A DNA stretch of 63,082 bases. Source: Rhodospirillales bacterium (GTDB lineage: Bacteria > Pseudomonadota > Alphaproteobacteria > Acetobacterales > Acetobacteraceae). The stretch's first letter is position 1. The number at the start of each line of letters is the position of its first letter. The notes under the pieces were generated by a model. The model saw only the letters and a list, made by a program, of their open reading frames with translations, was not told the DNA's origin and made no database searches. Below, in pieces: positions 10,859 to 59,757 of this stretch. Location: positions 1 through 63,082 of the forward strand of contig JANXSM010000075.1 in assembly GCA_025352665.1 (NCBI GenBank), written 5' to 3'. The position numbers and the translations under genes are program-made.

Positions 10859-10964
10859 TAGAGCAATATCGCCTGAGGTTGAACGAACTGCGTGATAACA
10901 TTGTTCGTCAAAACAAAAGACTAGAGCCTGATCGCTTTGTCTATCAGAAGCGATCAGGCTCTAG
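10859..10964 (+). repeat. Two-hairpin repeat element, copy R1 (orientation B-A)
   Basis: The B half (10859-10920) opens TAGAGCAATATCGCCTGAGG. The A half (10921-10964) is a 17-bp perfect inverted repeat, CTAGAGCCTGATCGCTT with its complement, around a 10-base loop that reads CTGATAGACA on the other strand. The B half matches the B half of copy R3, near mazG, over GAGCAATATCGCCTGAGGTT. The copy lies between two glycosyltransferase genes and could terminate or attenuate transcription between them. Confidence 0.85.
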
Positions 10965-10984
10965 AAATTTACAGGGAGTCGACC

Positions 10985-11809
10985 ATGCGTGTTGCATGCG
11001 TGAATATGCAGAAAAATGAAGATCACTGCTTGGCCCCCTGGGTGCAGTATCATGGATACCTCTTTGGTTTCGAAAATATCTTTATCATTGATCACAACTC
11101 CAACTCTCCCAAGACCCTGGAGACCCTCGAACGCCTCGAACGTAGTGGAGTTAGTGTTACCCGCTTGACGGAGAACGATGATTACAAAAACAAGGGCGCT
11201 TTCGTCGCCGCGGAAATCCATAGGATCGAGGCAACGGATAAATATGATTTTGTCTTTCCTATCGATTGTGACGAATTTCTTTTTATGCGAGACGGGCAGA
11301 ACAAGCCAACCTGTTCACGAAGTGAAATATTTCGATATCTGGAAACATTCCAAGGTTATCTTGGGCGACTAATTATTAAAGAAAATTTTCTCCATATACT
11401 TGGTCACGCAGGGTACTACTGGGCGTTACCTTATCAGAAAGTTTTCTTTTCAGGCGGAAATTGTCTCTCGCTCGACCATGGGTCCCACATTGGCCAAGCA
11501 CGCCATTCGGAAGAATCACTTGTGACGAGGATGGCGTATGCCCACTTTCACTTTAAACCATATGAAATTAATCGAGAACTCAGCCGTGAAAAGCTGAGGC
11601 CATTTGTCGACGTTGACGATTTACTTGCTTTGGAGAGGTTTGACGGTCCGGGCACACATCTGAAACATCACTTATTGAATACAAGAGAGGTTTACTATTC
11701 TACATTCAGAGTTGATCATAATGCAGCCTATTTTTCTGAATTAAATAAGCTTTTTGAGCTATTGAATATTGATCCAAATTTCTCAGCATGTGATACCAGC
11801 CCACCTTGA
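10985..11809 (+). CDS. AT-rich glycosyltransferase (GT2/GT92-like, Glyco_tranf_2_4 type)
   Basis: The 274-residue protein resembles the glycosyltransferase group that opens NExxxLxxWVxYHxxxG. Here this reads NMQKNEDHCLAPWVQYHGYLFGFENIFIIDHNS, with a metal-binding acidic motif FPIDCDEFL and a KLRPF-type C-terminal part. AGGGAG lies 5 bases before the ATG, so I use 10985 although the frame is open for 16 more codons. Base composition is clearly lower in G+C than all neighbours, with many AAA, AAT and TTT codons, a sign of recent transfer. The last codons (TSPP and stop) lie in the arm of a 23-bp hairpin. Acceptor and sugar are unknown. Confidence 0.75.
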   Translation: MRVACVNMQKNEDHCLAPWVQYHGYLFGFENIFIIDHNSNSPKTLETLERLERSGVSVTRLTENDDYKNKGAFVAAEIHRIEATDKYDFVFPIDCDEFLFMRDGQNKPTCSRSEIFRYLETFQGYLGRLIIKENFLHILGHAGYYWALPYQKVFFSGGNCLSLDHGSHIGQARHSEESLVTRMAYAHFHFKPYEINRELSREKLRPFVDVDDLLALERFDGPGTHLKHHLLNTREVYYSTFRVDHNAAYFSELNKLFELLNIDPNFSACDTSPP

Positions 11810-11943
11810 TGCTGACTCTTCCAGCATCAAGGTGGGCTGGTATCGCGCGCCGGGCTGGCCGGCGGCGGCGGCGCGCAAAATATGACTGATGCCAAATCGC
11901 CGTTGACACATCCTTCATGTGTCAACCTCAAGGCGGGTTGGTA
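11792..11943 (+). repeat. Hairpin repeat cluster (second family) at the end of the AT-rich glycosyltransferase
   Basis: A perfect 23-bp inverted repeat occupies 11792-11814 and 11822-11844 with a 7-base loop. Its 5' arm contains the last codons and stop of the glycosyltransferase. A G+C hairpin follows at 11845-11876 (GCGCGCCG with CGGCGCGC). A third hairpin at 11902-11926 (GTTGACACAT with its complement) leads into 11928-11943, which repeats the arm sequence TCAAGGYGGGYTGGTAT found at 11827-11843. The structure suggests remnants of two copies of a larger palindromic element. It may also terminate transcription. Confidence 0.7.
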
Positions 11944-12401
11944 TGAGTGAGTAGAAAATATATCTGCGTAATAAATTAAATTACATTAAACTTTTCACTT
12001 ATAACCCACGGGAGCGCGGGCGACTCCATTGGACTTATGACACAAAGGTACAGCAAGTAGAAAAATGCTGGAGCGACGTCGTCAAAGATTTTTTCTATTT
12101 TACCAAAGTCCCGATGGGGATTTGATCGGCCAGTGCTTTGTCAAGAGTGTCCGACGTCACACTCGATGCAGCCGGGGCCGTCGATGGCGAGATCATAAAG
12201 GGGCGGGCTTCCATACCGATCTGGAGGCATCACCATGATTGTGTGTCGACCTAAGGACGGTCCACACCGATACGCGAAATCAGAATTCATAATCATCTCG
12301 ATGCCCCACAACGCGCCCAGTCGTCCGCGTTCATGGCATCAACGGACATGATTGATTGGAAAGCCATTTGCCAGGAGACTTCGGGAACCATTCTAGCTGA
12401 C
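11944..12401. other. 458-base stretch without a recognised gene
   Basis: The first 100 bases are AT-rich and look like the edge of a transferred segment. Two small ORFs can be seen but not assigned. A plus-strand ORF of 38 codons (12235-12351) has a good GGAGG seven bases before its ATG. A minus-strand ORF of 39 codons (12095-12214) has protein-like composition but no clear ribosome-binding site. Neither resembles a family I know, and both could be gene fragments. I see no tRNA, integrase or clear terminal repeats. Confidence 0.4.
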
Positions 12402-13163: not shown

Positions 13164-13215
13164 GCGGCGGGTTGGCTCCCCGGGAAATACGCGGCTGGAC
13201 ACTTGGCGCGCGTGT

Positions 13216-16031: not shown

Positions 16032-16130
16032 CAGATGGTCTGAACCGGGCCGGAAGGAAAGGGCCGTCTTGTGGCGGTTTCGCGGCCCTGTCTAACGTTG
16101 CGCGAGGTTCACCATCATCAGGAGGCGGGT

Positions 16131-18258: not shown

Positions 18259-18277
18259 CCCGCTATGGCTTCGGTTT

Positions 18278-18291
18278 TTGATGTAAATCAA
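18278..18291 (+). promoter_or_regulatory. FNR/Anr/FixK-type binding site upstream of ompW
   Basis: TTGATGTAAATCAA is a perfect match to the FNR-family consensus TTGATNNNNATCAA, centred about 78 bases before the ompW ATG. In enterobacteria ompW is under FNR control, so oxygen-responsive expression is a reasonable inference. Confidence 0.75.
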
Positions 18292-18362
18292 AGCGGTGCG
18301 GCCGAACAGATGGTTGTTTGCCGGCATCGGATAACGAACCGATGTCGGAAGGACCCCCCTCT

Positions 18363-19526: not shown

Positions 19527-19605
19527 CCAATAACCTATGTTGGATCCGCTCGCAGCCGTTGAAGTTTATAAGTCAGAGGCGGTAATTAGGGCGAGGCGAT
19601 CGTTC

Positions 19606-21326: not shown

Positions 21327-21368
21327 GGTTGTTCTCTCTATTGGTCAGAAGGTGGATGCGCGCCTGTC

Positions 21369-21943: not shown

Positions 21944-21980
21944 TGCCTGTCATGGCCTCCTTGGTTGGATTTTTATCGAA

Positions 21981-24582: not shown

Positions 24583-24585
24583 GCT

Positions 24586-28888: not shown

Positions 28889-28995
28889 CTAGCGCGTGGT
28901 GACGTCTGATAGGCGCCGTAATTCCAGTCTAGCTCTTTGTTTTATCGCGAGATTCCGACCTTTCGATGATTCCACCTTCGGTCATCACGCTCGAG
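28889..28995 (+). repeat. Two-hairpin repeat element, copy R2 (orientation A-B')
   Basis: The A half (28889-28932) is an imperfect palindrome between CTAGCGCGTGG and CCAGTCTAG, with the conserved CTGATAGGC loop. The B half (28933-28995) is close to the B halves of R4 and R5. Read on the minus strand it encodes the last 20 or so residues of MntR, including VMTEGGIIERSESRDKTKS, and the TAG stop at the A/B junction. It lies between convergent genes, so it may also serve as a two-way terminator. Confidence 0.88.
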
Positions 28996-32844: not shown

Positions 32845-32950
32845 CTCGGGAGCTTGACCGCTTCGGGTAGGCGGAGCGATTAGGCTCTAGCCGTTGGTTA
32901 GAAAAGAAAATTGACTGCGCAGTTGCTGCAACCTCGGGCGATATTGTTTC
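32845..32950 (+). repeat. Two-hairpin repeat element, diverged copy R6 (orientation A-B')
   Basis: The A half (about 32845-32890) ends GCGATTAGGCTCTAG and retains a GTAGGCGG loop. The B half (32891-32950) still shows AACCTC.GGCGATATTG, matching the type found in R1 and R3. It is more mutated than the other five copies. It begins about 12 bases after the hflX stop. Confidence 0.6.
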
Positions 32951-33328
32951 AATTGTGTCAAATTTTTTCCTGTCTGATTGGTGAACAAAATACAACCAGA
33001 CAGTCGTGCATCTTTAGGGCGTCATTCTTCGTATTACATGTAACGCTCGCGAGGCTGAGGAGACGTCTCGATGCGCACTGAGGAGACAGGAACGACGACC
33101 GGCCATTCGGCCAGGGTGAAATGGGAGGGGAGGGCGATCATCTCTGCCAATAAGCTGTCAAACCTGGCGAACTAACCTCTAACCAAACGACCGCGGATCG
33201 GGCACTCTGCATTTACAAGTGTTGTGTTACATCCAACGGCGAGACTCAACCTACCGTCACCACTAGGCGCAGCGTTAAAAAGCGCGGCCGGCTAAAATGA
33301 TCACACCAATAGATACGAGGACATGACG
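32951..33328. other. 378-base intergenic region before the secreted repeat-protein gene
   Basis: No protein gene is supported. The stretch must hold the promoter of the repeat-protein gene. TCTTTAGGGCGT at about 33010 also occurs upstream of the response-regulator gene (about 38871), and it may be a shared promoter element, though this is only two occurrences. A short GGCCATTCGGCC hairpin lies near 33100. No known small RNA is recognised. Confidence 0.4.
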
Positions 33329-33919
33329 ATGAACTATATCAAATTTGGCGCCGCTTTGTTGATGGCGACTTCGCTTTCGGTTTCCGCGTTTGCCCAGGTC
33401 CCGGGCTGTGTGAAGCCGGGCACCGTGGCCGAAGGCGATCGCGCCGGTCAGAATGGCAAGAACGCCACGCAACTCGCCGAGGGCGATCGCGCCGGCCAGA
33501 ACGGCAAGAACACCACGCAGCTTGCTGAGGGCGACAATGCCGGCAAGACAAAGCTCGCCGAGGGTGACCGTGCTGGCCAGAATGGCAAGAATTCCACGCA
33601 GCTTGCCGAGGGCGACAATGCCGGCAAGACCAAGCTTGCTGAGGGCGATCGCACCGGCCAGAACGGCAAGAACGCCACGCAGCTCGCCGAGGGCGATAAT
33701 GCCGGCAAGACAAAGCTTGCGGAGGGTGATCGCGCCGGCCAGAACGGCAAGAACGCCACGCAGCTCGCCGAGGGTGACAACGCCGGCAAGACAAAGCTCG
33801 CGGAAGGTGACCGTGCTGGCCAGAATGGTAAGAATTCTACGCAGCTCGCCGAGGGCGATAATGCTGGCCGCGTGAACTTGGCCTCCGGCGCCCCGGCTGG
33901 CAGCGTTACCTGTAAGTAA
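33329..33919 (+). CDS. Secreted tandem-repeat protein, AEGDxAGxNGKN type
   Basis: The 196-residue protein has a signal peptide (MNYIKFGAALLMATSLSVSAFAQ). Then come six 16-residue units, AEGDRAGQNGKN(A/S/T)TQL, and five 11-residue units, AEGDNAGKTKL, mostly alternating, with an AEGD register throughout. Single cysteines near the start (VPGC) and at the end (VTCK) bracket the repeats and could form a disulfide. Alternation of Gly, Asp and Asn every few residues suggests a beta-solenoid or calcium-binding surface, which is inference. GAGG lies eight bases before the ATG at 33329; an ATG at 33323 is in frame. The gene ends in a strong terminator. I know no named family. Confidence 0.7.
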   Translation: MNYIKFGAALLMATSLSVSAFAQVPGCVKPGTVAEGDRAGQNGKNATQLAEGDRAGQNGKNTTQLAEGDNAGKTKLAEGDRAGQNGKNSTQLAEGDNAGKTKLAEGDRTGQNGKNATQLAEGDNAGKTKLAEGDRAGQNGKNATQLAEGDNAGKTKLAEGDRAGQNGKNSTQLAEGDNAGRVNLASGAPAGSVTCK

Positions 33920-33963: not shown

Positions 33964-34003
33964 CGGGCCGCGGCGACACGACATGTCACCGCGGCCCGTT
34001 TTT
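33964..34003 (+). terminator. Rho-independent terminator after the repeat-protein gene
   Basis: A 15-base 5' arm (33964-33978) pairs with 33984-33998, with one mismatch, around a CGACA-type loop, and five T follow. It isolates the repeat-protein gene from the protease gene downstream. Confidence 0.85.
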
Positions 34004-34049
34004 GTGCAGGCGCCGCTGTTGCGGTAGGACTGAGCCAAGGGGCGTGACA

Positions 34050-35531
34050 ATGAGGAAGGGTGTCGATTTCGGATATTGGGCGCCTAGCCGGTTGGCCGGG
34101 CCCTTATTCGCTTTCGCGTTGCTGCTAACGCCGATCCAGGGCATGGCCGCCGGTCTGCCTCCCATGCCGCTCGCTGATCTGGTCTCCTCGCTGATGCCGT
34201 CGGTGGTCAACGTCACCACCCGCAGGCTGGTGAAACCACCGAGCAGCCCGCTCAACGCGTCAAGCTCGGTAGACAATTCCGACCATAACGCTAGCGCCAC
34301 CACCTCCAGCACCACCGTGGGCTCCGGCTTCGTGGTCGACCCAGACGGCGTGATCGTCACCAACAACCACGTGGTTGAAGGTGCCTATTCGATTACCGCG
34401 ACCTTCCAGGACGGCACCGTGCTGAGTGCCGAGGTGATGGCCACCAGCAAGCTCGGCGATCTCGCCCTGCTCAAGGTCAATGCCAGCCATCGCCTGCCAC
34501 CGGTGCATTTTGGCGACAGCTCGACGGTTCACGTCGGCGACACCGTTATCACCATCGGCAACCCGCTCGGTTTCGGCGGCTCGGTCAGCGGCGGCATTGT
34601 GAGTGCTTTGAACCGCGACATCATGTTGAGCCCGTTTGACGACTTCATCCAGACCGACGCGGCGCTCAATCACGGCAATTCCGGTGGTCCGCTGTTCAAC
34701 ATGCACGGCGAGGTGGTTGGTGTAACCACGGCGCTGTACACGCCGATCGACGCGGGCGGTTCGATCGGCATCGGTTTCGCGATCCCCGCCTACTGCGCCG
34801 AGTTCGTGGTCAACCAGTTGATGAAATACGGTGTGGTTCGGGCGGGTGAGGTGGGCGTGCAGCTGCAGGACGTGTCTGCGGAGATCGCCCAGGCAGCAGC
34901 CTTGCCGCCGACCTCGCGCACGACCGGCATTCTGCCGGGCAGCGCCGGCTGGGGCGTGATCGTAACCCACGTGCATCCGGATGGGCCGTCCGCGAAAGCC
35001 GGCATCCAGGATGGCGATATCCTGCTCAAGATCGATGGTCAGCCAATTGGCGACATGCGCGCCTTTGCCCGCACCATCGCCGTTCATGAACTGAATGCGC
35101 CGGTCACCCTGTTGCTCTGGCGCGATGGAGCTCCGGTCTCCGCAACGCCGATCGTGCACGAATGGCTATCCGGCGAGACGGTGGATCGCGCGGCGTTGGA
35201 ACGCAGCCGGCCGATCCGTTCATCGACGGCCGATCTCGGCCTGCGTCTCGCACCGTTGACCGATGTCGCGCGCACCGCGCGCGAACTGCCGGCCGACCAG
35301 AGTGGCGTGCTAATCCAACAGGTCGTTGCCGGCAGCATCGCCGGCGACCGCGGCCTTGACGCAGGCGATGTCATCTTGAAGGTGATGAACACCCCGGTAA
35401 CGACCCCCGACCAGGTGCTGGCCAATCTCAAGGAAATGTGGACCGAACACCGCTCGATGGTGCTGTTGCTCGTGCGTGCCCAGAACGGGTTGCGGTGGGT
35501 GCCTCTGCCAATGCCCAAGAACGATACCTAG
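34050..35531 (+). CDS. DegP/HtrA-type periplasmic serine protease
   Basis: The 493-residue S1C protease has an N-terminal signal sequence (LAGPLFAFALLLTPIQGMAAG) and a catalytic triad: His (NNHVVEG, near 105), Asp (LGDLALLK, near 136) and Ser (HGNSGGPLF, near 211). Two PDZ domains are visible, with GVIVTHVHPDGPSAKAGIQDGDILLKIDG marking the first and GVLIQQVVAGSIAGDRGLDAGDVILKV the second. It degrades or holds misfolded periplasmic proteins. An AAGGGG lies upstream of ATG 34050. It is convergent with mazG, with repeat copy R3 between. Confidence 0.9.
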   Translation: MRKGVDFGYWAPSRLAGPLFAFALLLTPIQGMAAGLPPMPLADLVSSLMPSVVNVTTRRLVKPPSSPLNASSSVDNSDHNASATTSSTTVGSGFVVDPDGVIVTNNHVVEGAYSITATFQDGTVLSAEVMATSKLGDLALLKVNASHRLPPVHFGDSSTVHVGDTVITIGNPLGFGGSVSGGIVSALNRDIMLSPFDDFIQTDAALNHGNSGGPLFNMHGEVVGVTTALYTPIDAGGSIGIGFAIPAYCAEFVVNQLMKYGVVRAGEVGVQLQDVSAEIAQAAALPPTSRTTGILPGSAGWGVIVTHVHPDGPSAKAGIQDGDILLKIDGQPIGDMRAFARTIAVHELNAPVTLLLWRDGAPVSATPIVHEWLSGETVDRAALERSRPIRSSTADLGLRLAPLTDVARTARELPADQSGVLIQQVVAGSIAGDRGLDAGDVILKVMNTPVTTPDQVLANLKEMWTEHRSMVLLLVRAQNGLRWVPLPMPKNDT

Positions 35532-35535
35532 ACCA

Positions 35536-35671
35536 GGATGATTTCTGATAGGCAAAATCACCGCGATTTAGAGTGGGATGACGTCTGATAGGCGACGTCA
35601 TCCCACTCTAGCCTTTTGTTTCAACGAGTAATTTTATCGCATGGTTGGTTCAACCTCAGGCGATATTGCTC
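35536..35671 (+). repeat. Two-hairpin repeat element, copy R3 with an additional A-type hairpin
   Basis: The main A half (35569-35610) is a near-perfect palindrome from TAGAGTGGGATGACGT to its complement, with loop CTGATAGGCG. Ahead of it (35537-35562) is a second A-like hairpin, GGATGATTT with AAAATCACC, around the same CTGATAGGC loop. The B half (35611-35671) matches R1 in reverse. On the minus strand the B half encodes the last 11-12 residues and stop of MazG. The copy lies between the convergent protease gene and mazG. Confidence 0.88.
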
Positions 35672-49114: not shown

Positions 49115-49121
49115 GGAAATA

Positions 49122-49196
49122 CTTCTTTTTTGAAAAAAAGAAGCAAAAAACTTTAATAATTTGAAAGTTTTTTGGTCCTTTTTTTCAAAAAAGGAC
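49122..49196 (+). repeat. Three tandem AT-rich hairpins after the MmgE/PrpD gene
   Basis: Hairpins at 49122-49143 (CTTCTTTTTT with its complement), 49145-49173 (AAAAAACTTT arms) and 49175-49196 (GTCCTTTTTTT arms) follow each other almost without gaps. The high A+T contrasts with the G+C-rich surroundings. T- and A-tracts would give terminator function on both strands; the gene on the other side is convergent. Confidence 0.75.
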
Positions 49197-49263
49197 TGCT
49201 TTACCAACAGCACCGCGAGAAGATACGATATCGTAACAAAATATGCCAGCCAAAACTCCAGCC

Positions 49264-49845
49264 TCAGGCCGGCCTAAAAAATCGAAGATTCCAGTAAGGC
49301 ATTGGCCCCATCCCCGCAGGTGCCGGCGCACTCGGCGTCACGCAATCTCCACCCCGCGCCGCGCGTGGCTCGCCCACCACCGCGATCGCCGGGGCCGGCG
49401 TCACCAGAGAGGTCTCAACCGCCAGCATCCGGCACAGCGGGTGCAGCATCCGGCCCAACCGCGGCGTCGCGGCGAGCAGTGCCACCATCTCAGGGTCCTC
49501 GAGCAGCACACGCAACCACCCACCCAGGGCCGCAGCCTTGTTGGGCACCGCCCGCACCAGCCAGGCATAACCTTGCGGCAATTTTGGTCCGGTCGGCGCC
49601 GCCGTGGCGGTTTCCCTCGGTCCGCTGCGACCTCCGCGACCGTGTCCCACCCGCAGCGTTCCGGCGCGGATATCCGCCATCAGCGCCAGCACTCGCCGCT
49701 CGATCCGCCGCAAATGACCGCAGATCAGCACGATCATCGCAACCGAAAGCACAGGGCCCCGATACTGCGCGGCCACCAATGCATGCAGCGCATCGATCAC
49801 CTGCGAGAAACGGCCGGTCAAGGAAAGGGGCTGGGCGATTGTCAT
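49264..49845 (-). CDS. Conserved hypothetical protein
   Basis: The 193-residue protein has an N-terminal hydrophobic stretch (residues about 30-45, GPVLSVAMIVLICGHLRRIERRV), followed by a basic linker and a helical part (GYAWLVRAVPNKAAALGGWLRVLLEDPEMVALLAATPRLGRMLHPLCRML). I recognise no catalytic motif. It looks like a protein found widely in Acetobacteraceae, possibly membrane-associated, with the C-terminus PMPYWNLRFFR. I use ATG 49845 rather than the open ATG 49863. Repeat R4 lies upstream. Confidence 0.6.
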   Translation of the reverse strand: MTIAQPLSLTGRFSQVIDALHALVAAQYRGPVLSVAMIVLICGHLRRIERRVLALMADIRAGTLRVGHGRGGRSGPRETATAAPTGPKLPQGYAWLVRAVPNKAAALGGWLRVLLEDPEMVALLAATPRLGRMLHPLCRMLAVETSLVTPAPAIAVVGEPRAARGGDCVTPSAPAPAGMGPMPYWNLRFFRPA

Positions 49846-49912
49846 GGAACATAATAAGAACATACCCAGCCGCCCGACACAATACGTGGTGCCCCTTACT
49901 GCGTTGAATGCG

Positions 49913-50019
49913 CTAGAGTGTGATGACCGAAGGTGGAATCACCGAAAGGTCTGAATCACGCGATAAAACAAAGAGCTAGAGTGGGATTACGTCGCCTATC
50001 AGACGTCATCCCGCTCTAG
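49913..50019 (+). repeat. Two-hairpin repeat element, copy R4 (orientation B-A)
   Basis: B half 49913-49975, A half 49976-50019 (CTAGAGTGGGATTACGT paired with its partner, loop CTGATAGGC on the minus strand). The B half reads VMTEGGITERSESRDKTKS followed by TAG in one frame, though no gene uses it here. It stands between a binding-protein gene and the hypothetical gene, both on the minus strand. Confidence 0.9.
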
Positions 50020-50041
50020 CCCGGCGTCGTGCGCCAGAATT

Positions 50042-50815
50042 TCAAGACCCTGGTTCGAACCCATTGAGCCGAAAGATCTCCGCCATCACGGGCCCACGGA
50101 GCAGGTCCAGCAGGGCCTGTGCCCGCGCAGGGTCGGTCGATTTCGTGGCCAGCCCCGCCGCATAGACCGTGCGCAGCTGCAGCCCGGCCGGTATCGGCCC
50201 GATCAGGTTCATCCCCGCAACCGGGGTGATTTCGCTGATCTGGCCAAGACCGAGCGCAATCTCACCGCGGGCTCCTGCCTCCATGGCGGTCTGGCCTTCG
50301 GGATACAGCCGCAGTTTCGGCTTCACGGCGTCGGCCACGCCCAGGCGTTCGAACAGCCGCGCCAGATAAATGCCGGACGTCGCACCGGTCGCGGGGTCGG
50401 CCATGCCGATGGTCGCCGCATCCAGCAGCGACTGGCGGAATTCCGCCTCGGTTGCGATCTTGGGCATGTTGAACGTGCCGCTGCGCACGGCCGCCCCCAG
50501 CAGCACAGCACCCAGATTGTGGCGGCTCGCATCCACAACCAGGCCGCGCTTGACCAGATCCGCCAAGGGCGCCGGCGGCAGGATGGCGAGGTCGAACGCA
50601 ACTCCCGCCACCGCCTGGTCATGTATCACGCCTGCGGTGCCGAACACGAAGCGCACCGAGGCGCCGTTGCTGGCCGTGAAGCGTTGCGGCACCTCGGCCA
50701 TCACGGTCTTCACCGCGGCGGCCGAAAGCACCACCAGATCCTGTGCCCGCGCGGGCATCGCCATGGCGACCAGCGCCCCCACCAGCGCCCCGAGCGCCAT
50801 GAAAACCCGTCTCAT
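50042..50815 (-). CDS. Molybdate/ModA-like periplasmic substrate-binding protein
   Basis: The 257-residue type 2 periplasmic binding protein has a signal peptide (ALGALVGALVAMAMPARAQ), then LVVLSAAAVKTVMAEVPQRF, FVFGTAGVIHDQ and FDLAILPPAPLADLVKRGLV. The pattern is that of ModA-type binding proteins. Permease and ATPase partners are absent. Its ATG overlaps the thiolase stop by ATGA, an odd pairing for a transporter gene. It may be a stand-alone sensor of an oxyanion or organic ligand; this is inference. Confidence 0.72.
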   Translation of the reverse strand: MRRVFMALGALVGALVAMAMPARAQDLVVLSAAAVKTVMAEVPQRFTASNGASVRFVFGTAGVIHDQAVAGVAFDLAILPPAPLADLVKRGLVVDASRHNLGAVLLGAAVRSGTFNMPKIATEAEFRQSLLDAATIGMADPATGATSGIYLARLFERLGVADAVKPKLRLYPEGQTAMEAGARGEIALGLGQISEITPVAGMNLIGPIPAGLQLRTVYAAGLATKSTDPARAQALLDLLRGPVMAEIFRLNGFEPGS

Positions 50816-52014
50816 ACCCGTTCGATCATAAGCGCGATCCCCTGCCCTACCCCGATGCACATCGTCGCAATCGCCCGCTTGCCGCCGCCCGTCTCCAGGG
50901 CGTTGAGCGCCGTCATGGCGAGCCTGGCGCCCGAGGCACCCAGCGGATGGCCCAGCGCGATGGCGCCGCCTTGCGGGTTCACCCGCTCGTCCGTCTCCGA
51001 CAGCCCAAGCTGGCGCAGCACAGCGATCCCCTGGCTGGCGAAGGCCTCGTTGAGCTCGATGATGTCGATGTCGGAAAGGCTGAGCCCGGTCTTGGCGAGC
51101 AGCTTCTGCACCGCAGGCGCCGGCCCGATGCCCATGATGCGCGGCGCCACACCGGCCGTGGCCATCGAAACGATCCGCGCCCGCGGGGTCAGGCCGTGCC
51201 GACGCGCGGCGGCTTCGCTTGCCACCAGCAGCGCCGCCGCCCCGTCGTTCACGCCCGAGGCGTTGCCGGCGGTAACGGTGCCGGGGTTGCGAAAGGGGGT
51301 TTTGAGCTTGGCCAGCATCTCCATCGTGGTGTCGCCGCGCGGGTGCTCGTCGCGGTCCACCACCACGTCGCCCTTGCGGCCCTTGATGGTCACCGGCGCG
51401 ATTTCGCGGGTAAAGAACCCGCTGTCCTGCGCCGCCTTGCATTTCTGCTGGCTGCGAAAGGCGAAGGCATCCTGGTCGGCACGCGAGATCTGAAACGCCT
51501 CGGCCACGTTCTCGCCGGTCTCGGGCATGGAATCCACGCCGTACATGGTCTTCATCAACCCGTTGACGAAGCGCCAGCCGATCGTGGTGTCATAGATCTC
51601 GGCAGCCCGGCTGAACGCCTCAGGGGCCTTGCCCTGCACGAAGGGCGCCCGGGTCATGCTCTCCACGCCGCCGGCCAGCATCAACTCGGCCTCCCCGGCG
51701 CGAATGGCCCGCGCCGCGGTGCCAAGCGCATCGAGCCCCGACCCGCACAGCCGATTGAGGGTCGCGCCGGGCACATCGACGGGGTAGCCGGCCAACAAGG
51801 TCGCCATGCGGGCGACGTTGCGATTGTCCTCGCCCGCCTGGTTGGCGCAACCCATGTAGCAATCGTCCAGCGCCGCCCAGTCAACCGAGGCGTTGCGCTC
51901 GCGCAGCACCCGCAGCGGGTGAGCGGCCAGGTCGTCGGTGCGAACATCCCTCAACGCGCCGGCGTAGCGGCCGATCGGCGTGCGGGCATAATCGCAGATG
52001 AAGGCGTCCGGCAT
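50812..52014 (-). CDS. pcaF: Acetyl-CoA acyltransferase, 3-oxoadipyl-CoA thiolase type
   Basis: The 400-residue thiolase would split 3-oxoadipyl-CoA to succinyl-CoA and acetyl-CoA, ending the beta-ketoadipate pathway. The N-terminal segment DDCYMGCANQAGEDNRNVARMATLLAG is the PcaF-like variant. Active-site Cys in NRLCGSGLDAL, His in GGAIALGHPLGASGARL and Cys in ATMCIGVGQG are present. The pathway genes around it are missing, so I give the symbol with moderate certainty. It is coupled to the binding-protein gene. Confidence 0.8.
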   Translation of the reverse strand: MPDAFICDYARTPIGRYAGALRDVRTDDLAAHPLRVLRERNASVDWAALDDCYMGCANQAGEDNRNVARMATLLAGYPVDVPGATLNRLCGSGLDALGTAARAIRAGEAELMLAGGVESMTRAPFVQGKAPEAFSRAAEIYDTTIGWRFVNGLMKTMYGVDSMPETGENVAEAFQISRADQDAFAFRSQQKCKAAQDSGFFTREIAPVTIKGRKGDVVVDRDEHPRGDTTMEMLAKLKTPFRNPGTVTAGNASGVNDGAAALLVASEAAARRHGLTPRARIVSMATAGVAPRIMGIGPAPAVQKLLAKTGLSLSDIDIIELNEAFASQGIAVLRQLGLSETDERVNPQGGAIALGHPLGASGARLAMTALNALETGGGKRAIATMCIGVGQGIALMIERV

Positions 52015-52125
52015 GGCGGCGTTCCCTGGGTCGTGAGTGTTGCCGGGAAGCTAGACTGCATTGTCTCCAACACAAAGCGGGTGCGTTGAGACATGCGTGA
52101 GGAAACCCAGTCTCGGCGGAAGCCG

Positions 52126-52162
52126 ATCATTCAGCCGCACCGGCACGATGTGGCTGAATGAT
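52126..52162 (+). terminator. Hairpin between the pcaF and bdhA genes
   Basis: ATCATTCAGCC (52126-) and GGCTGAATGAT (-52162) pair perfectly, with one extra base in the continuing stem (CAC/GTG). There is no T-tract. It could end bdhA-operon transcripts or be a single repeat unit. Confidence 0.4.
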
Positions 52163-52223
52163 GGATCAACTCTGGCCGGACACGCAGTTGTCGGGGACGC
52201 GCTTTACCCGGCAATCAGGCTGG

Positions 52224-53006
52224 TCAATCCATGCACCAGCCATGGCTCACATTGAGCGATTGGCCGGTCATGACGTTGGACTTGGCGGAGGCAAAGAACA
52301 GCACGGCGTCGGCCACGTCATCGGTGGTGGTGAATTCGCCGTCCACGGTTTCCTTCAGCATGACGTTCTTGATCACCTCGTCCTCGGTGATCCCCAAGGC
52401 CTTGGCTTGCTCCGGGATCTGCTTCTCAACCAACGGCGTGCGCACGAAGCCGGGGCAGATGACATTGGCGCGCACATTGTGCTTGGCGCCCTCTTTGGCC
52501 ACCACCCGCGCCAGGCCGAGCAGCCCGTGCTTGGCGGTGACATAGGCGGACTTCAGCACCGAGGCCTCCTTCGAATGCACCGAACCGATGTAGACTATCG
52601 AGCCGCCGCCATTGGCATACATCGACTTGATGCAGGCCTTGGTGGTGAGAAACGCCCCATCCAGGTGAATGGCCAGCATCTTCTTCCAGTCGGCGAACGG
52701 AAAATCCTCGATCGGATGCACGATCTGGATACCGGCGTTGCTGACCAGCACGTCGATCCTGCCCCATTTCGCGATCACCGCGGCAACCCCGGCCTCCACC
52801 GCCGCCTCGTCGCTCACATCCATCGCGACGGCCATGGCGGTGATGCCGTCCTTCGCGAACGCATCCACTGTGGCCTGCGCCGCATCGAGCTTGAGGTCGG
52901 CGATGACCACCTTCGCGCCCTCGGCGCCAAACCGATGGGCGATCTCGCGCCCGATGCCGCTGGCAGCACCGGTGATGATGGCGATCTTGTCCTGCAACTG
53001 AGCCAT
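52224..53006 (-). CDS. bdhA: 3-hydroxybutyrate dehydrogenase
   Basis: The 260-residue short-chain dehydrogenase interconverts D-3-hydroxybutyrate and acetoacetate. [12 protein letters not shown] (NAD fold), NAG in [15 protein letters not shown], the catalytic Ser in [22 protein letters not shown] with Tyr and Lys (YVTAK), and [22 protein letters not shown] are typical of BdhA. A patatin-like protein gene follows upstream on the same strand, as in PHB-utilisation clusters. Start ATG 53006. Confidence 0.9.
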
Positions 53007-53062
53007 GTCGAGAAATCCCTCTGTCAGATCATCAAAACCACGCGGCTCGGCATCAAACGGCG

Positions 53063-54217
53063 TCAGACCGGCTGCGCGGCGGCTTGCTTTTTATAGACGT
53101 CGTGCAGCACGTCGAACACCCGCGCGCCCAGCTCGCGCGGGTGCGGTACCAGCCAGGGAGCGGCGCGCAGGTTCACCTCGGCGTCCGATTTCCCCTGCTC
53201 CCACCGGTCCAGCATGGTGATGCGGCTGAACTCGAAATCCTTGGTGGAGCCTTGCGGCGCGAACGGCCGGTAGATCAGCTGCACGATGTCCATCTCGGTC
53301 ACGCAGGCGAGCTCCTCGAGGAACCGCGCCTGTGCCAGTGACCGCACTTCCGCCGGCAGCACGGCGAGCAGGTCATGCACCTGGGAGCGGATGTTGTGCA
53401 GCACCTCGAACGCCTCTGTGGCGGTGCGCGTGCGGCTCGCGTAGCGGATGTCCTTGTCCCGTTCAGCCACTTCCTCAAGCGTTGCCGGCAGCTTGCCATA
53501 GGACTGGAACAGATCCACCTGAAAGGCTATCTGGCTGATCCGGGGCTCGGTCTCCAGCACGTATTGCAAAGGGGTGTTGGAGATCAGCCCGCCATCCCAG
53601 AAGAACTCGCCGTCGATCTCGACGGCGGGAAACCCCGGCGGCAACGCCCCGCTGGCCATCACATGCTCAGGGCGGATCTTCATGTGATGGTTGTCGAAAG
53701 GGGTCAGCCGCCCGTTCACCACGTTGACGGCGCCCACCGAAAACCGGATCTCGCGCGCATTGATCCGGTCGAAATCGACCAGCCGCTCCAACGTGTCGCG
53801 CAGCGCCGCGGTATTGTAGAAGCTCACAGCACCTGCGCCAGGCAGAAAATCCACCGGCGAACGCGGCGCATAGAAACCGGGCAGCCCGCACAACACGGCG
53901 CCCATCGCCCCCATGTGCCGCTGCGCATCGGTCATCGCCTGGAACCAGGTCGGCCAGCCCGAGGTGGGCGCGGTGATCGCCTCCCAGAACGCGCGCAACT
54001 GCGCCACGCGGGTCTGTGGCGGGTTACCCGCGATGATGGCGGCATTGATCGCCCCGATCGACGTGCCGGCGACCCACTGCGGCAGATAATCCGCCGCCGC
54101 CAGCGCCTCGTACACCCCGGCCTGATAACTTCCCAACGCGCCGCCACCTTGAAGAACAAGGGCCACCCGCTTGTCAAAGGTGGCGGGGCGCCGGTGCGAT
54201 TTCGCGGTCTGGGGCAA
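53063..54217 (-). CDS. Patatin-like phospholipase family protein
   Basis: The 384-residue protein has the patatin Ser-Asp dyad: [18 protein letters not shown] (oxyanion loop), [10 protein letters not shown] (nucleophile elbow) and [14 protein letters not shown] (Asp). The C-terminal part matches DUF3734. Together with bdhA, this class is linked to storage polyester or lipid turnover in several bacteria; the link is known, its action here is inferred. It is 56 bases upstream of bdhA. Confidence 0.88.
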
Positions 54218-54309
54218 AACATGTCTCCTGCAGCGCAGGGACCATGTGCCCCAGCACCGCCAGTGTCACATGACCATTGCGTAAATCGAAGCGGTTCGAG
54301 GCCGCTCCT

Positions 54310-55434
54310 TCAATCCGCCAACGCAGCGCACACCTGCTCCACCTGCGCGTCCTCAAGCTGCGGATACATCGGCAGGCTCACCACCTCGCCCGCCGCAAGC
54401 GCGGTCGCGCCGCAACTGGAGGGTCCCATCGCGACCCGTCCGCGGTAGGCCGGCTGCAGATGCACCGGCACGGGATAATGAATGCCGGTGGCAATCCCGC
54501 TCGCCCGCAGGCGCGCCTGAAACGCGTCGCGCTCCGGATGGCGCAGCACATACTGGTGGAACACATGGGTGGTGCCCTCACGGCGCGCCGGTGCCAGTCC
54601 GCTTTCGCCAAGTGCTGCATCATAGCGTGCGGCAATTGCTCGCCGCCGGGCGTTCTGCGCGTCCAGATGCGAAAGCTTCACCCGCAGGATCGCCGCCTGA
54701 ATCTCATCCAGCCGCGAATTCACGCCCACGAAGTCACTGATATAATGGGTCTTCCAACCATACTGGCGCAACGCGCCAAGCCGGTCGGCGAGGGCTGCAT
54801 CATGCGTCGCCAACACCCCGCCATCGCCCAATGCGCCCAGGTTCTTGGTCGGGTACAGGCTGAAACAGCTCACCTCCGTGAGCCCGCCAACCCGCCGTTC
54901 GCCGATCATGGCGCCATGCGCCTGACTGCAGTCCTCGATCACCGGGATGCCGAAGTGCGCGGCCATCGCCTGGATCGACTCGAGATCGGCCGGCTGGCCA
55001 TACAGATGCACCACGATGATGGCCGAAATCCTCGGCAACCCCTTGGGCGGATGTGCCAACACGGCCATCAGCTCGCCCGGGTCCATCGTGTAATGCAGCG
55101 GGTCAATGTCGATCAGCACCGGCGTGGCGCCGGCCATCTCGATGGCGGCGACCGTGGCCACTGCGGTATGCGAAACGGTCGCCACCGCCTGCCCCGGGCC
55201 AATCCCCAGGCCGCGCAGCGCCAGCGCCAGCGCATCCGTGCCATTGGCGCATCCCACCGCACACGTGGTGCCCGTCCAGGCGGCAAACTCCGCCTCGAAC
55301 GCCCGCCCCTCGGCCCCCAGAATATACCAGCCGGAGGCCAACGCGCGCGCCACCGCCGCATCGATCTCAGGTTTCAGCGCCAGATATCCGGCACCCGGAT
55401 TGGCCTGCGGAACGGTGATGATCGGAACATTCAT
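54310..55434 (-). CDS. DegT/DnrJ/EryC1/StrS family aminotransferase
   Basis: The 374-residue PLP enzyme of sugar aminotransferase type makes amino sugars for surface glycans. PGAGYLALKPEIDAAVARALASGWYILG at the N-terminus, GCANGTDALALALRGLGIGPG, IEDCSQAHGA and the PLP lysine in SLYPTKNLGALGDGG are characteristic. It is downstream of the epimerase gene and probably cotranscribed. Start ATG 55434. The donor sugar, and whether it acts at C3 or C4, is unknown. Confidence 0.88.
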   Translation of the reverse strand: MNVPIITVPQANPGAGYLALKPEIDAAVARALASGWYILGAEGRAFEAEFAAWTGTTCAVGCANGTDALALALRGLGIGPGQAVATVSHTAVATVAAIEMAGATPVLIDIDPLHYTMDPGELMAVLAHPPKGLPRISAIIVVHLYGQPADLESIQAMAAHFGIPVIEDCSQAHGAMIGERRVGGLTEVSCFSLYPTKNLGALGDGGVLATHDAALADRLGALRQYGWKTHYISDFVGVNSRLDEIQAAILRVKLSHLDAQNARRRAIAARYDAALGESGLAPARREGTTHVFHQYVLRHPERDAFQARLRASGIATGIHYPVPVHLQPAYRGRVAMGPSSCGATALAAGEVVSLPMYPQLEDAQVEQVCAALAD

Positions 55435-55444
55435 GACATGATCC

Positions 55445-56416
55445 TCAAAGGTAGGCGGCCAGGCGCGGCCGATACCAGTCCAGCGAACGCGCGATCCCCT
55501 GCTCCAGCGCCACCTGCGGCGCCCAGCCGGTGGCCGCCCGGAACGCGCTGTCATCGGCATGGTAGCTGCCGATATCGATGCTCGCCCGGTCGCTGGGAAA
55601 TTCCCGCGTGGTAAACGATGCCCCGGCCCCTGCCATCTTCACCGTCAACTCGGCGATCTCGCGAAGCGATGCCGGCGGTGCGCCACCGAGATTGAATACC
55701 TGCCCATGCGCTGCCGGCGTGCTCGCAGCGAGCAAAAACGCCTCGGTGACATCGTCGACATAGGCCATGTCGCGCAACTGGTCGCCGCCCCACACCTCGA
55801 ATGGCCGACCCTCCAGCACGCAGCGGATCCAGATTCCCAGGAAGGTCTGCCGCGCATCGCGAATCCGCAGTCGCGGCCCATAACAGTTGGTCAGCCGCAA
55901 CGACACCACGGGACGGCCGGCGGTGCGATGCTCGATCATCCAATACTGTTCGCCGGCGAATTTCGAAACACCGTTGGCATCGGGCGGTGCCACCGGATGC
56001 GTCTCATCCACCGGCAGATAGCGCGGACGCCCATAGAACTGCCGCGTCGAGGCATGCACCACCACCGCCTCCGGCGCCGCCTCCCGCGCCGCCTGGATCA
56101 GCCGCACCTGTGCCACGGCGTTCACAGCGATATCGGCCAGCGGATCGCGCTGCCCGCCCATATGGCTGGTCTGGGCGGCCAGGTTGAAGATGACATCGGC
56201 CCCCTCGCACAACGGCCGCAAATCCGCCTCACGAATATCGGCACGCACCAGCTGCACATCGACCCCGTCCAGATTGGCCGGATTGGCGCCGCCACCGAAC
56301 AAAAACCCGTCCAGCGCCGTGACCCGCGCGCCGCGACGCACCAGCGCCTCGCACAGATTGGCGCCAAGGAACCCCGCGCCCCCCGTCACCAGCACCTTCG
56401 CCCTCGCCCAATCCAT
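55445..56416 (-). CDS. NAD-dependent epimerase/dehydratase (extended SDR)
   Basis: The 323-residue nucleotide-sugar modifying enzyme has the GGAGFLGANL cofactor loop, NLAAQTSHMG, and ASTRQFYGRPRYLPVDETHPV. The catalytic YxxxK, expected in the next segment, reads NGVSKFAGEQ, so Tyr is replaced by Asn. A few extended SDRs show similar changes. The usual activity is 4,6-dehydration or epimerisation. Ten bases upstream of the DegT gene on the same strand, so probably one operon. Confidence 0.82.
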   Translation of the reverse strand: MDWARAKVLVTGGAGFLGANLCEALVRRGARVTALDGFLFGGGANPANLDGVDVQLVRADIREADLRPLCEGADVIFNLAAQTSHMGGQRDPLADIAVNAVAQVRLIQAAREAAPEAVVVHASTRQFYGRPRYLPVDETHPVAPPDANGVSKFAGEQYWMIEHRTAGRPVVSLRLTNCYGPRLRIRDARQTFLGIWIRCVLEGRPFEVWGGDQLRDMAYVDDVTEAFLLAASTPAAHGQVFNLGGAPPASLREIAELTVKMAGAGASFTTREFPSDRASIDIGSYHADDSAFRAATGWAPQVALEQGIARSLDWYRPRLAAYL

Positions 56417-56494
56417 CACGCTCTCCCGATCCACTGCAGGGTCATGCCGGTTTATCGTGGCAAAACCGCGCCGCAATCAAGGCAGGGGATGTCC

Positions 56495-57280
56495 TTACAC
56501 CGATGCGCCCGAGCTCTCCGCCCGCAGCCGCGCCGGCGTCATCATCACCGTGTTGAGCCCTGTCCCCGGCGCCACCACCGCGAGCCTGCCCTGTCGCACA
56601 GCCACCGTCTCATAGCCAAGCCCGCCCAGCAGCTCCGAAACCTTGGTGCTGTCCCAGAACTGCTCGATCAGGATGGCGGGCTCGGTGCGCCGCAGCGTTT
56701 CGATCGCTCCCGACAGCATCTCGAACTCGAACCCCTCGATGTCGATCTTAAGAAAGCTCGGCGTCAGTTCCAGGCTGTCCAACGTCACGATCGGGCACAC
56801 ATATTCGCTGGCGGTCACCTTCGCCGGATCGAAAAAATACAGCGTCTTGGCGCTGAAATAACCGAACGCCGCCTCCCGCGAGAAGGTCGCGACGCCGTCA
56901 TAGACGAAGCCGTTATAGGCCGGCACGAACAGCGTCATCTCGCCAGGCCGCGGCCCCAGACCGTGGTTGCGCAGCTCCACGCCGGCAACCGCTGCGAAAC
57001 GCTGCTTCAGCTCGGCGAAGATCACCGGATTGGGCTCGAACGAGACAATGCGCGCATCCGGCCGATACTTGCGGATCGACAGGATCGACTGCCCGCGGTT
57101 TGCCCCGATGTCGAGAAACAGATCGTCCGGTTTCGCCCGCATGGCCGCGATCACGGCAAACTCGCCCTCATGCGACAGGCCGAGGTAACGCCGGCTGTAA
57201 TAATAAGCATCGTTCTTCAAGCCGCGGAGACCGGGGAAATAATTCTGCAGCGTGCGCAACGGTTTCTTGAGATCGGCCAT
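56495..57280 (-). CDS. FkbM family methyltransferase
   Basis: The 261-residue SAM methyltransferase has the FkbM pattern: LFLDIGANRGQSILSIRKYRPDARIVSFEPNP, ITL-type acidic strand VTLDSLELTPSFLKIDIEGFEFEMLSGA. FkbM enzymes O-methylate sugars or polyketides. ATG 57280 is chosen where the conserved part begins. It precedes the epimerase gene, so a role in methylating a surface sugar is likely but inferred. Confidence 0.85.
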   Translation of the reverse strand: MADLKKPLRTLQNYFPGLRGLKNDAYYYSRRYLGLSHEGEFAVIAAMRAKPDDLFLDIGANRGQSILSIRKYRPDARIVSFEPNPVIFAELKQRFAAVAGVELRNHGLGPRPGEMTLFVPAYNGFVYDGVATFSREAAFGYFSAKTLYFFDPAKVTASEYVCPIVTLDSLELTPSFLKIDIEGFEFEMLSGAIETLRRTEPAILIEQFWDSTKVSELLGGLGYETVAVRQGRLAVVAPGTGLNTVMMTPARLRAESSGASV

Positions 57281-57374
57281 GAGTTGCTCCGCACCACGGT
57301 CGACTCTCGTAGAGGAGGTGGCGGCCTGACACCAGCCCGCTTGATGCTCACGCGTCGCATGATATGCAGGCACC

Positions 57375-58643
57375 ATGATCCCAGATCCCGACGCCCAAGC
57401 CCGGCGCAGCCTCGCCCAGCACCGCGCCTTCGCCAGCGGCCTGCTCGTGCTCATGGCCGCCCTCACCCTGCTCGCCTACGCGCTGCCGCCTGGCTGGCCG
57501 ACCGAGCTGCTGCAGGCCGCCGCCAAAGCCGGCTTCGTCGGCGGGATCGCCGACTGGTTCGCCGTCACCGCCCTGTTCCGACACCCGCTCGGCCTGCCCA
57601 TCCCGCACACCGCCATCATCCCACGCCAGAAGATCCGCCTCGGCCGCGCCCTCGGCCGCTTTGTGGCAGGCCATGTGTTCACCCAGGCCGAGCTGTCAAT
57701 CACGCTGGCCCGGCTCGACATCGCCCAGATCGTCGAACGCTTCCTGGCCGATCCGAAGGCCACCCGCCCCGCCGCCGAGGCGCTGGCGGCCATGCTGCCA
57801 CGGGTGCTGGCGAGCATCGAGGACGGCCGCGCCCGCAGCGTCGCCCGGCGCATCCTGCCGCGCATCCTCGGCGGCGTCGGCGCCGGCCGCGTCGTTGCCC
57901 GCGCCCTGCGTGCCATGCTGGAAGGCGGGCGGCACCAGGAGGTGTTCAGCTTCATTCTCGCCGAACTCAAGAAGGTGCTGTCCGAACGCGAGGATGCCAT
58001 GCGCATCGCCATCGAGGAGCGGGTGCGCGAGCAGGGCGGCCGCCTGGTCGGCTGGGCGGTCGGCGCCACCATCGCCAAGCGTGCGGTCTCGCTCATCAAT
58101 GCCGAGCTCACCAAAATGGAATCGAGCGGCTCCGACCTGCGCGACGCGTTCGACGAATGGGTACGCCGCGAAATCACCCGCATGGAGGAGGACCCAGAAC
58201 GTGCCGCCGAAATCGGCAAGGCGCTGCGCCGGGTGGTGATGCACGAGACGGTGCAGGCCTGGGTGATGGACATCTGGTCGCGCTTCCGCCTGGCCATCGA
58301 GATCGACGCCGCCCGCCCGAACGGCCACACTGTCGGCCTGATCGAAGCCGCCCTGGCCAATTTCGGCGTGCTGCTGTCGACCGACCCCGCCGCCCGCACC
58401 CGCCTGCAACACGCCGTCGAAGGCGTGGTTTCGCCCCTGCTGCCGGCCGCCCAGGCGCGGCTTGAAACCTTCATCGCCGAAGTCGTCGGCGGCTGGGACG
58501 CCCAGACCATCACCGACCGCCTGGAACTGCGGGTCGGCCCAGACCTGCAATACGTGCGCATTAACGGCACACTGGTCGGCTTTCTTGTCGGCGGCCTGGT
58601 GTGGGCGGTGCTGACGGCCATTTTCGGTCATGTGGCTTTTTGA
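57375..58643 (+). CDS. DUF445 family membrane protein
   Basis: The 422-residue protein has an N-terminal membrane hairpin (LLVLMAALTLLAYALPPGWP), the DUF445 signature AAAKAGFVGGIADWFAVTALFRHPLGLPIPHTAIIPRQKIRLG, a long helical region and a C-terminal membrane segment (VGFLVGGLVWAVLTAIFGHVAF). Function is unknown. It is divergent from the FkbM gene and 12 bases ahead of the LLM oxidoreductase gene. Confidence 0.9.
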   Translation: MIPDPDAQARRSLAQHRAFASGLLVLMAALTLLAYALPPGWPTELLQAAAKAGFVGGIADWFAVTALFRHPLGLPIPHTAIIPRQKIRLGRALGRFVAGHVFTQAELSITLARLDIAQIVERFLADPKATRPAAEALAAMLPRVLASIEDGRARSVARRILPRILGGVGAGRVVARALRAMLEGGRHQEVFSFILAELKKVLSEREDAMRIAIEERVREQGGRLVGWAVGATIAKRAVSLINAELTKMESSGSDLRDAFDEWVRREITRMEEDPERAAEIGKALRRVVMHETVQAWVMDIWSRFRLAIEIDAARPNGHTVGLIEAALANFGVLLSTDPAARTRLQHAVEGVVSPLLPAAQARLETFIAEVVGGWDAQTITDRLELRVGPDLQYVRINGTLVGFLVGGLVWAVLTAIFGHVAF

Positions 58644-58655
58644 TAGGTGAGCGAG

Positions 58656-59672
58656 ATGCGTCTCTCGGTGTTGGACCAGTCTACCGTGGTGACCGGACGC
58701 TCACCGGATACATCAATTCGCGAAAGCATTGCACTCGCTCAGGTTTGTGAGACAGTCGGCTATCACCGCTACTGGTGTGCCGAGCACCACGGTTCGGCGA
58801 GCCAGGCCGGCACTGCCCCGGAAATCCTGATCGCGGCCATCGCCGCCACCACAACCCGCATCCGCGTCGGCAGCGCCGGCGTGATGCTGCCGCATTATTC
58901 CGCCTTGAAGATCGCCGAACAGTTCCGCGTCCTCGAAGCCATCGCCCCTGGCCGGATCGACATGGGGCTCGGCCGCGCGCCCGGCTCCGACGGGCTGACG
59001 GCCCAGGCGCTCAACCCCAATGCCGCCCGCGCGGCAGACCTGTTCCCCGCCAGCGTGCGCGACCTGCTGGCCTGGGTGTCCGGCGAGGCCCTGCTGGAAA
59101 ACCATCCGTTCCGCGACATCAAGGCGCAACCGACCGGCCCGAGCACGCCGGAACCCTGGATTCTCGGCAGCAGCGACTACGGTGCCCAGGTGGCTGCGCA
59201 TTTCGGCCTGCCCTACTGCTTCGCCCATTTCATCACGGACGGACGCGGCGGTGCCGAGGCGATCGAGCTCTACAAAACCAGCTACCGCCCCAGCGAGCGC
59301 TTCCCGCAGCCGATCGCAGCCGTCACCGTCTGGGCGATGGCGGCGGAAACGCAGCAGGAAGCCGACGAATTGTTTCTCTCCCGTGCCATCTGGCGGCTGG
59401 GCCGCGACCGCGGAATCTACGCCCCCCTGCCCTCGCCCGCCGAAGCCGCGGCAACGTCGTTGACGGAAGCGGAAACCGCGCGGATCGCCACGTTGAAATC
59501 ACGCGCGCTCTACGGCACGCCGGATCATGTGGCGGAACGCCTGCGCGATCTCGCCGCGGCATTCGGGGTCGATGAAATCGCAATCCTCACCACCGTGCAC
59601 GACCCGGCGGCGCGGGCCCGCAGCTACCGGCTGCTGGCTCGTGCTTTTGATCTAGAGCGGGATGACGTCTGA
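58656..59672 (+). CDS. LLM class flavin-dependent oxidoreductase (luciferase-like)
   Basis: The 338-residue FMN-dependent TIM-barrel enzyme has the LLM group 'SDQ' opening MRLSVLDQSTVVTGRSPDTSIRESIALAQ, then YHRYWCAEHHGSASQAGTAPEILIAAIAATTTRIRVGSAGVMLPHYSALKIAEQF. AGGTGA precedes ATG 58656; a GTG three codons upstream is possible. The natural protein ends about RAFD; the last residues LERDDV and the TGA come from repeat copy R5. Substrate unknown. Confidence 0.88.
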   Translation: MRLSVLDQSTVVTGRSPDTSIRESIALAQVCETVGYHRYWCAEHHGSASQAGTAPEILIAAIAATTTRIRVGSAGVMLPHYSALKIAEQFRVLEAIAPGRIDMGLGRAPGSDGLTAQALNPNAARAADLFPASVRDLLAWVSGEALLENHPFRDIKAQPTGPSTPEPWILGSSDYGAQVAAHFGLPYCFAHFITDGRGGAEAIELYKTSYRPSERFPQPIAAVTVWAMAAETQQEADELFLSRAIWRLGRDRGIYAPLPSPAEAAATSLTEAETARIATLKSRALYGTPDHVAERLRDLAAAFGVDEIAILTTVHDPAARARSYRLLARAFDLERDDV

Positions 59673-59757
59673 TAAGCGACGTAATCCCGCTCTAGCTCTT
59701 TGTTTTCTCGCGTGATTCAGACCTTTCGGTGATTCCACCTTCGGTCATCACGCTCTA
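59652..59757 (+). repeat. Two-hairpin repeat element, copy R5 (orientation A-B')
   Basis: A half 59652-59695 (CTAGAGCGGGATGACGT, loop CTGATAAGC, partner ACGTAATCCCGCTCTAG). B half 59696-59757, nearly identical to R4 in reverse. The A half encodes the last codons and stop of the LLM oxidoreductase; the far end of the B half supplies the TAG stop of the convergent 59755-60066 gene. Confidence 0.9.

Follow-up and report, generated by a model that had tools for sequence, protein, structure and literature searches.

Two-hairpin repeats of an Acetobacteraceae genome as probable IS630-type mini-elements retained at stop codons

Six short repeats, each built of two hairpins, are scattered over a 63,082-nucleotide stretch of a Rhodospirillales bacterium of the family Acetobacteraceae (assembly GCA_025352665.1, contig JANXSM010000075.1, positions 1 to 63,082; hereafter the window), and they raise the question of what moves such repeats and why they stand where genes end. 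We put the probability at roughly 0.8 that they are non-autonomous mini-elements (miniature inverted-repeat transposable elements, MITEs) of the IS630 (Tc1/mariner) type, with a two-arm architecture like that of the Caulobacter CcrM-associated intergenic repeats (CIR), and that they have been retained at stop codons.

The window comes from a draft genome (G000; 5.27 Mb in 177 contigs, estimated to be 100% complete). The repeat unit spans 106 bases and consists of a 44-base A hairpin, a linker (CTCTTTGTTTTATCG) and a B hairpin with a GCTCTAG end, the two stem-loop arms folding independently with the linker between them. The A hairpin runs from CTAGAGC through stem, loop and stem to GCTCTAG; its loop is kept, as the first-pass annotation of this DNA had reported, although in two forms (CTGATAGGC or CTGGTAGGC). 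The termini of the whole element are inverted repeats (TA-GAGC...GCTC-TA), and the element is short and carries no transposase gene. All six annotated copies could be read in place and were recovered by a profile search of the window, which gave seven matches rather than six, R3 being an A-B unit to which an additional A hairpin is fused (A-A-B):

10858 to 10964, minus strand: R1, A hairpin at 10921-10964 (CCTGATCGCTT type), linker and B2 half (sequence and profile search).
28889 to 28995, plus strand: R2, A hairpin at 28889-28932 and B1 half, with a decayed right end (CGAG; sequence and profile search).
32845 to 32950, plus strand: R6, a decayed copy (left end decayed) of A (right CTAG at 32887-32890) and B2, directly past an hflX-like gene.
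35528 to 35571, plus strand: first A hairpin of R3 (GGATGATTT type), its last TTAG common to the next unit (profile search).
35568 to 35671, plus strand: A-B unit of R3, a GGGATGACGT A with B2 and a decayed right end (profile search).
49913 to 50019, minus strand: R4, A hairpin at 49976-50019 and B1 half (profile search).
59652 to 59757, plus strand: R5, TA-GAGC...GCTC-TA with its TAs at 59653-59654 and 59756-59757, A at 59652-59695, and B1.

Tandem units have one TA in common (R3 and locus L096), as expected if an older copy had received an insertion at its CTAG end. The annotated division into two B types holds within the window (B2 in R1, R3 and R6; B1 in R2, R4 and R5), but a third B type occurs in L062, L102 and L013. 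An Rfam scan of the window returned no family at its gathering score.

Which enzyme would read such ends? The IS630-type domain DDE_3 (PF13358) gave 21 matches in the genome, many of them fragments and two below the curated cut-off. The window's contig has no match to DDE_3 or to the RAYT domain Y1_Tnp, the two families tested, and for these the annotation was right that the window lacks a transposase or RAYT (tyrosine transposase of repetitive extragenic palindromic, REP, elements) gene. One IS630-type insertion sequence (IS), in L052 (C21), is 1048 bp long, flanked by TA and begins TAGAGCGTGATGACGTTTGA; its transposase (L052 1071-2013) is split about a run of A into two overlapping frames, an arrangement familiar from frameshifting members of IS630. 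Fifteen IS ends, picked for starting TAGAG, were compared with the repeat ends over the 14 places beyond TAGAGC. As controls served 130 further TAGAGC sites from a sample of 863,082 bases, made up of the window and 40 stretches of 20 kb. The A variant TAGAGCGTGATGACGTCTGA (L083, L096) agreed with the L052 IS at 13/14 places (control maximum 8) and at 19/20 end bases overall, A_G at 12/14 (control maximum 8) and B1 at 9/14 (control maximum 8); A_C agreed at 11/14 with the IS630 end of a congener, G003:C35 (control maximum 9). A match to an IS630 end of the same genome was found for A_G, A_GT and B1. Such ends suggest that an IS630-type transposase acting in trans would bind the GAGC... end, excise the element and insert it at YTAR (CTAG-like), duplicating TA. 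The A hairpin would be essentially two element ends face to face, so that the stem of a family would change when its source adapts to another transposase, and copies, once inserted, would decay freely. It is the anatomy of the element, together with one empty site, that points to transposition in trans by IS630. IS630-type ends also adjoin A hairpins of the element, or CTAGAGC hairpins resembling them, at L104 (1543-1602) and L113 (1564-1603), as though the repeat had served the IS as a target.

The empty site was found at R5, where a comparison of orthologous loci, as the annotation had proposed, identified two congeners without the element, G004 and G001. G004 reads GGG-CTA-ACG and G000 reads GAT-C-TA[element]TA-ACG, a pair that fits TA duplication. 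The minus-strand gene at this site ends CGT TAG in both genomes, with and without the element, and 10 of the 22 relatives examined, G004 included, show CTA or TTA at this place, which on the minus strand would give TAG or TAA (G004 alone was translated). The inferred target YTAR occurs in 15 of the 18 copies with both ends, and in 53 of 57 ends the base before TA is a pyrimidine. Empty-site searches for R3 and R6 reached orthologous genes with no match across the intergenic parts, and further searches returned no full orthologous site, one of them finding a homologous gene of similar C-terminal length. In another congener, G007, the gene interrupted by R5 in G000 is followed some ten bases past its stop by an element of the same architecture with other arms (L208, about 4025-4128). 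The gene beside R5 has named relatives of up to 79% identity, which point to Acetobacteraceae and to the vicinity of Rhodopila and Limobrevibacterium.

The position of the copies relative to genes was assessed with a home-made simple hexamer gene caller (822 genes). Gene 3' ends were the nearest gene ends for 41 of 46 largely non-coding copies, 22 of these 46 lay between convergent genes (vs 66 of 336 intergenic stretches), and the median distance to the gene 3' end was -3, that is, the stop codon of the gene is the first triplet of the element. From this genome's loci 125 element ends were collected, of which 123 were examined after removal of duplicates and of any end within 200 bases of a locus edge, and 84 of these had no clear coding frame. 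Where a clear frame read into the element, the terminal TA-G (once TA-A) was an in-frame stop in 34 of 39 cases, with 3 and 2 in the other frames (P = 5e-12 on the assumption of independent ends; a few copies contribute both of theirs), and the 34 stops were made by 17 A ends and 17 B ends. Counted by copies, 18 of the 39 with an intact end (51 copies in all in the sample) form the in-frame stop of a gene, against an expected share of 16.5% (85 of 516 YTAR sites outside coding interiors lie at stop codons; P = 1e-5), and 24 of the 142 TAG stops of the sample lie in copies. In loci of other genomes all six ends with a coding frame were in the stop frame (35 ends examined, 29 without a frame), and a coding frame was present at three of the 15 IS630 ends, being frame 0 at two of these. 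Three features of the window belong here:

35529 to 35531, plus strand: TAG stop of a trypsin/PDZ (degP-like) gene (open reading frame, ORF, 34002-35531), made by the terminal CTAG of R3.
58647 to 59672, plus strand: luciferase-like monooxygenase gene, its last codons and stop inside R5 and its tail altered by the insertion.
59755 to 59757, minus strand: TAG stop of the minus-strand gene, made by the B end of R5; the CGT TAG of G004 stands at the same TA.

The pattern recurs in public annotation of rhizobial plasmids, where the element end makes the stop of an annotated coding sequence (CDS) in 8 of 12 independent loci, the loci without such a stop being H14/H21, H18, H20 and H31. Fourteen plasmid loci had been fetched, two of which (H21, H28) repeat others, and the choice was not blind: H1 and H2 came from 8 records and the other 12 from 60 of 193 records, the 12 being full-length matches picked with features in view, six with a feature and six without. 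As the termini read TA-purine, an element that lands in the TA of a stop codon, TAA or TAG, leaves an in-frame stop; insertions of this kind do little harm, and copies would therefore accumulate at gene ends, chiefly between convergent genes. The copies do lie at gene ends, and selection, or the lack of harm, would have retained them there. Such an effect would account for the clustering of these repeats at 3' ends and between convergent genes, and perhaps for the genome's tolerance of so many copies; it is also a warning that a stop codon annotated in these bacteria can belong to a mobile element.

Stem changes matched in the opposite arm had been taken in the annotation as a sign of selection on structure or of an enzyme that reads it. 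Pair counts were made on 83 A windows of this genome, three of 86 having been dropped beforehand. The A stems fall into the families GGGATGACGT, CCTGATCGCTT and ATGATCCGCG and a GGATGATTT group, and A types combine variously with B1, B2 and B3 (A_G with B1 in 19/83 windows and with B2 in 4/83); in L066 the B1 end, in reverse complement, takes the place of the left arm of A, and a solo B1 hairpin occurs in L062. Across families the compensation is clear: in 18 sequences from the class both partners had changed at 14 of 18 A pairs, a count that 0 of 500 shuffles reached, the covariation score was 0.421 vs 0.140 shuffled (0/500), and in 76 distinct A sequences 82.6% of cells were paired vs 69.2% with arms shuffled. 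Within the two large A families, however, pairing barely exceeded that of shuffled arms (G family, 0.795 vs 0.787, with 71 of 500 shuffles as high; C family, 0.857 vs 0.838, with 1 of 500 as high), and stem mismatches in 1494 cells comprised 71 G.T and 72 A.C. The small gain within families and the parity of G.T and A.C imply that most compensation is fixed in source elements and that copies then decay as DNA; individual copies show no sign of upkeep of an RNA stem, and the part of the earlier claim that invoked selection on structure, in the sense of RNA pairing of individual copies, is not borne out. Invariant columns of the 18-sequence alignment lie mostly in the linker, and the arms differ. 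This comparison between and within families shows that, in a palindromic repeat, compensatory change is not by itself a sign of selection on RNA.

An alternative interpretation is that the repeats are selected RNA elements, terminators or 3'-end stabilisers kept for their hairpins, with mobility ancient or incidental. Strong predicted folds (z of -5.0 to -7.5 in three window copies and of -4.0 to -7.5 in five copies), the position at gene 3' ends and the U-rich linker behind the A hairpin speak for such a role, but we regard it as improbable because G.T mismatches are no commoner in the stems than A.C, because A and B sides face gene ends equally and copies have no orientation preference (13 of 21 on the same strand in co-directional pairs), and because the orthologous site lacks the element in the congeners compared. 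A terminator scan of window positions 49800-60000 gave 5 sites vs 5.0 expected, none of them at R4 or R5, which, with the lack of orientation preference, argues against a terminator role, just as the mismatch parity and the little within-family pairing gain argue against selection at the level of RNA. Of the two options in the annotation, an enzyme that reads the ends is thus the better one, given the IS end matches and the TA empty site. The enzyme that the annotation had in mind, a RAYT moving REP-like elements, would suit imperfect palindromes that are numerous and mostly extragenic; yet Y1_Tnp (PF01797) has no match in the 177 contigs of the genome, which has 21 for DDE_3, and 5 of 14 control genomes were positive, and terminal inverted repeats with TA ends, together with a TA empty site, fit an element cut and pasted by a DDE enzyme. 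A resident RAYT is ruled out by this search unless it lies in sequence missing from the draft, and we consider mobilisation by RAYT highly implausible.

A third possibility accepts the same mobile elements and holds that stop codons are actively targeted, for example through translation termination or a host factor, rather than reached by a YTAR preference with subsequent purging. The 18/39 copies at stop codons, when 16.5% of the available YTAR sites are so placed, would agree with targeting, but this 2.8-fold excess can also arise if promoter-near insertions are removed; we know of no mechanism for targeting of stop codons and think it unlikely.

Several points count against IS630-type mini-elements retained at stop codons. 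B2 and the ATGATCCGCG A type have ends that reach 8/14 with the IS ends found, and 4 and 5 of the 130 controls are as good; the IS that partners A_C comes from a congener, not from this genome; and the activity of the L052 IS is unproven because its transposase is split over two overlapping frames. No TAGAG ends were found in the G011, G017, G021 and G022 loci (four other genera; inverted-repeat search, three best pairs per locus), and G005, G014 and G023, all of them drafts, carry copies with no DDE_3 match found. The sole base-level empty site, that of R5, rests on a diverged congener, and in a second pair, in which G003 has the element and G000 lacks it, divergence at the joint hides the TA. 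The stop-codon excess in this genome depends on the home-made gene caller, and purging of promoter-proximal sites might narrow its margin over the share expected from YTAR. The conservation of the linker, finally, lacks an account in the IS630 scheme. To a wider proposal we would give slightly worse than even odds: that the whole class of CIR and Rhizobium-specific intergenic mosaic elements (RIME) is driven by IS630, that TA-purine termini are kept as stop rebuilders and stops are a safe harbour, that lineages swap hairpin ends to follow the local transposase and the TTTGTTTT linker stays, and that a sizeable share of host TAG stops (24/142 in the sample) is owned by the element.

Further copies in the genome, on which the first-pass annotation had made its case depend, are plentiful and far beyond chance. 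The 51 copies of the sample are non-overlapping matches of the profile search and scale to an estimated 310 or so in the whole genome, a rough figure because the sampled stretches came from contigs already known to carry copies. As a query against the genome R2 matched 45 places, its own among them (best E = 1.5e-60), and R1 64, counts that include opposite-strand single-arm matches among 40 candidates scored per query. CTAG is rare here (307 seen vs 2792 expected from base composition). Some copies are young, given that identity to the nearest neighbour ranges from 0.64 to 0.96 in 26 full copies and that a 99% match to R5 lies at another place in the genome. A search with R5 through 40 genomes, G000 included, gave matches in 10, among them three of the seven other genomes of the genus (G005, 20; G003, 5; G007, 1), and R5 as query against plasmids gave no match. 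A model of Acetobacteraceae and rhizobial copies (model R1) detected the class in 29 of 289 alphaproteobacterial genomes and 25 of 219 genera, G000 included, probably a lower bound since 13 candidates were scored per genome under strict filters. In G017, of another genus, a B1-A-B2 composite (L032) matches R5 with 94% identity across 106 bases, which may reflect horizontal transfer.

Other repeats occur in the window. A second dispersed type, an A/T-rich hairpin (CTTTTTTGAAAAAAAGAAGCAAAAAACTTT...), lies at 49122-49201 and has dozens of 32-48 base matches in the congeners G002, G005 and G007; 81-base tandem repeats occupy 33428-33877, within ORF 33323-33919; and a perfect 23-base inverted repeat with a 7-base loop lies at 11792-11844.

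Among known systems, the closest in description are the CIR (Chen and Shapiro 2003), which a review presents as intergenic elements of Alphaproteobacteria of about 110 bp, with two arms and a linker, terminal TA and GANTC in an arm (PMC2229807). The window repeats share the length of about 110 bp, the two independently folding arms, the linker, the TA ends and a spread across Alphaproteobacteria. GANTC is concentrated in them, with 39 sites in 4083 element bases (9.6 per kb) vs 936 in 863,082 (1.1 per kb), and at least one site is present in 17 of 21 long B1 copies; copies with B2 or another type, in contrast to CIR as presented there, mostly lack it (present in 1 of 9). The ends also differ, being inverted repeats here (TAGAGC/GCTCTA and more), whereas the CIR table of the review lists no terminal inverted repeat, enters '?' for target duplication and regards the mechanism of mobility as needing more information (PMC2229807). 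Membership in CIR, a likeness by description rather than by sequence, is for these reasons likely but not settled.

Plasmid copies of Rhizobium, Bradyrhizobium, Sinorhizobium and others resemble each other and, when aligned, have the arm-linker-arm order, a CTTTGTTT-like linker and TA ends of the window copies, but they end in TAAAGC rather than TAGAGC and their arm sequences are unlike; we take them to be the published RIME. The related palindromic elements Bru-RS1 and Bru-RS2 of Brucella (103 and 106 bp; PMC10800456) are similar in length and palindromes, by description only. The known IS630-type parallel is RUP of Streptococcus pneumoniae, in another phylum, a proposed IS630-Spn1 MITE of 107 bp with a TA target and ends like those of the resident IS630 (PMC2229807, PMC3049150), although two arms with a linker are, according to the review, peculiar to CIR (PMC2229807). 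BOX of S. pneumoniae, a different element family, encodes the stop codon of 36 CDSs, and regeneration of a stop from a TA target does not figure in its description there (PMC3049150); no title or abstract stating a stop-codon effect for this alphaproteobacterial repeat class was found in the open-licence literature. To the description of CIR the present analysis adds TA duplication, an IS630 end match and the position at stop codons. The mobility of CIR was left open in the review's account (PMC2229807), and a genome with a matching IS, one empty site and hundreds of copies makes that question directly testable.

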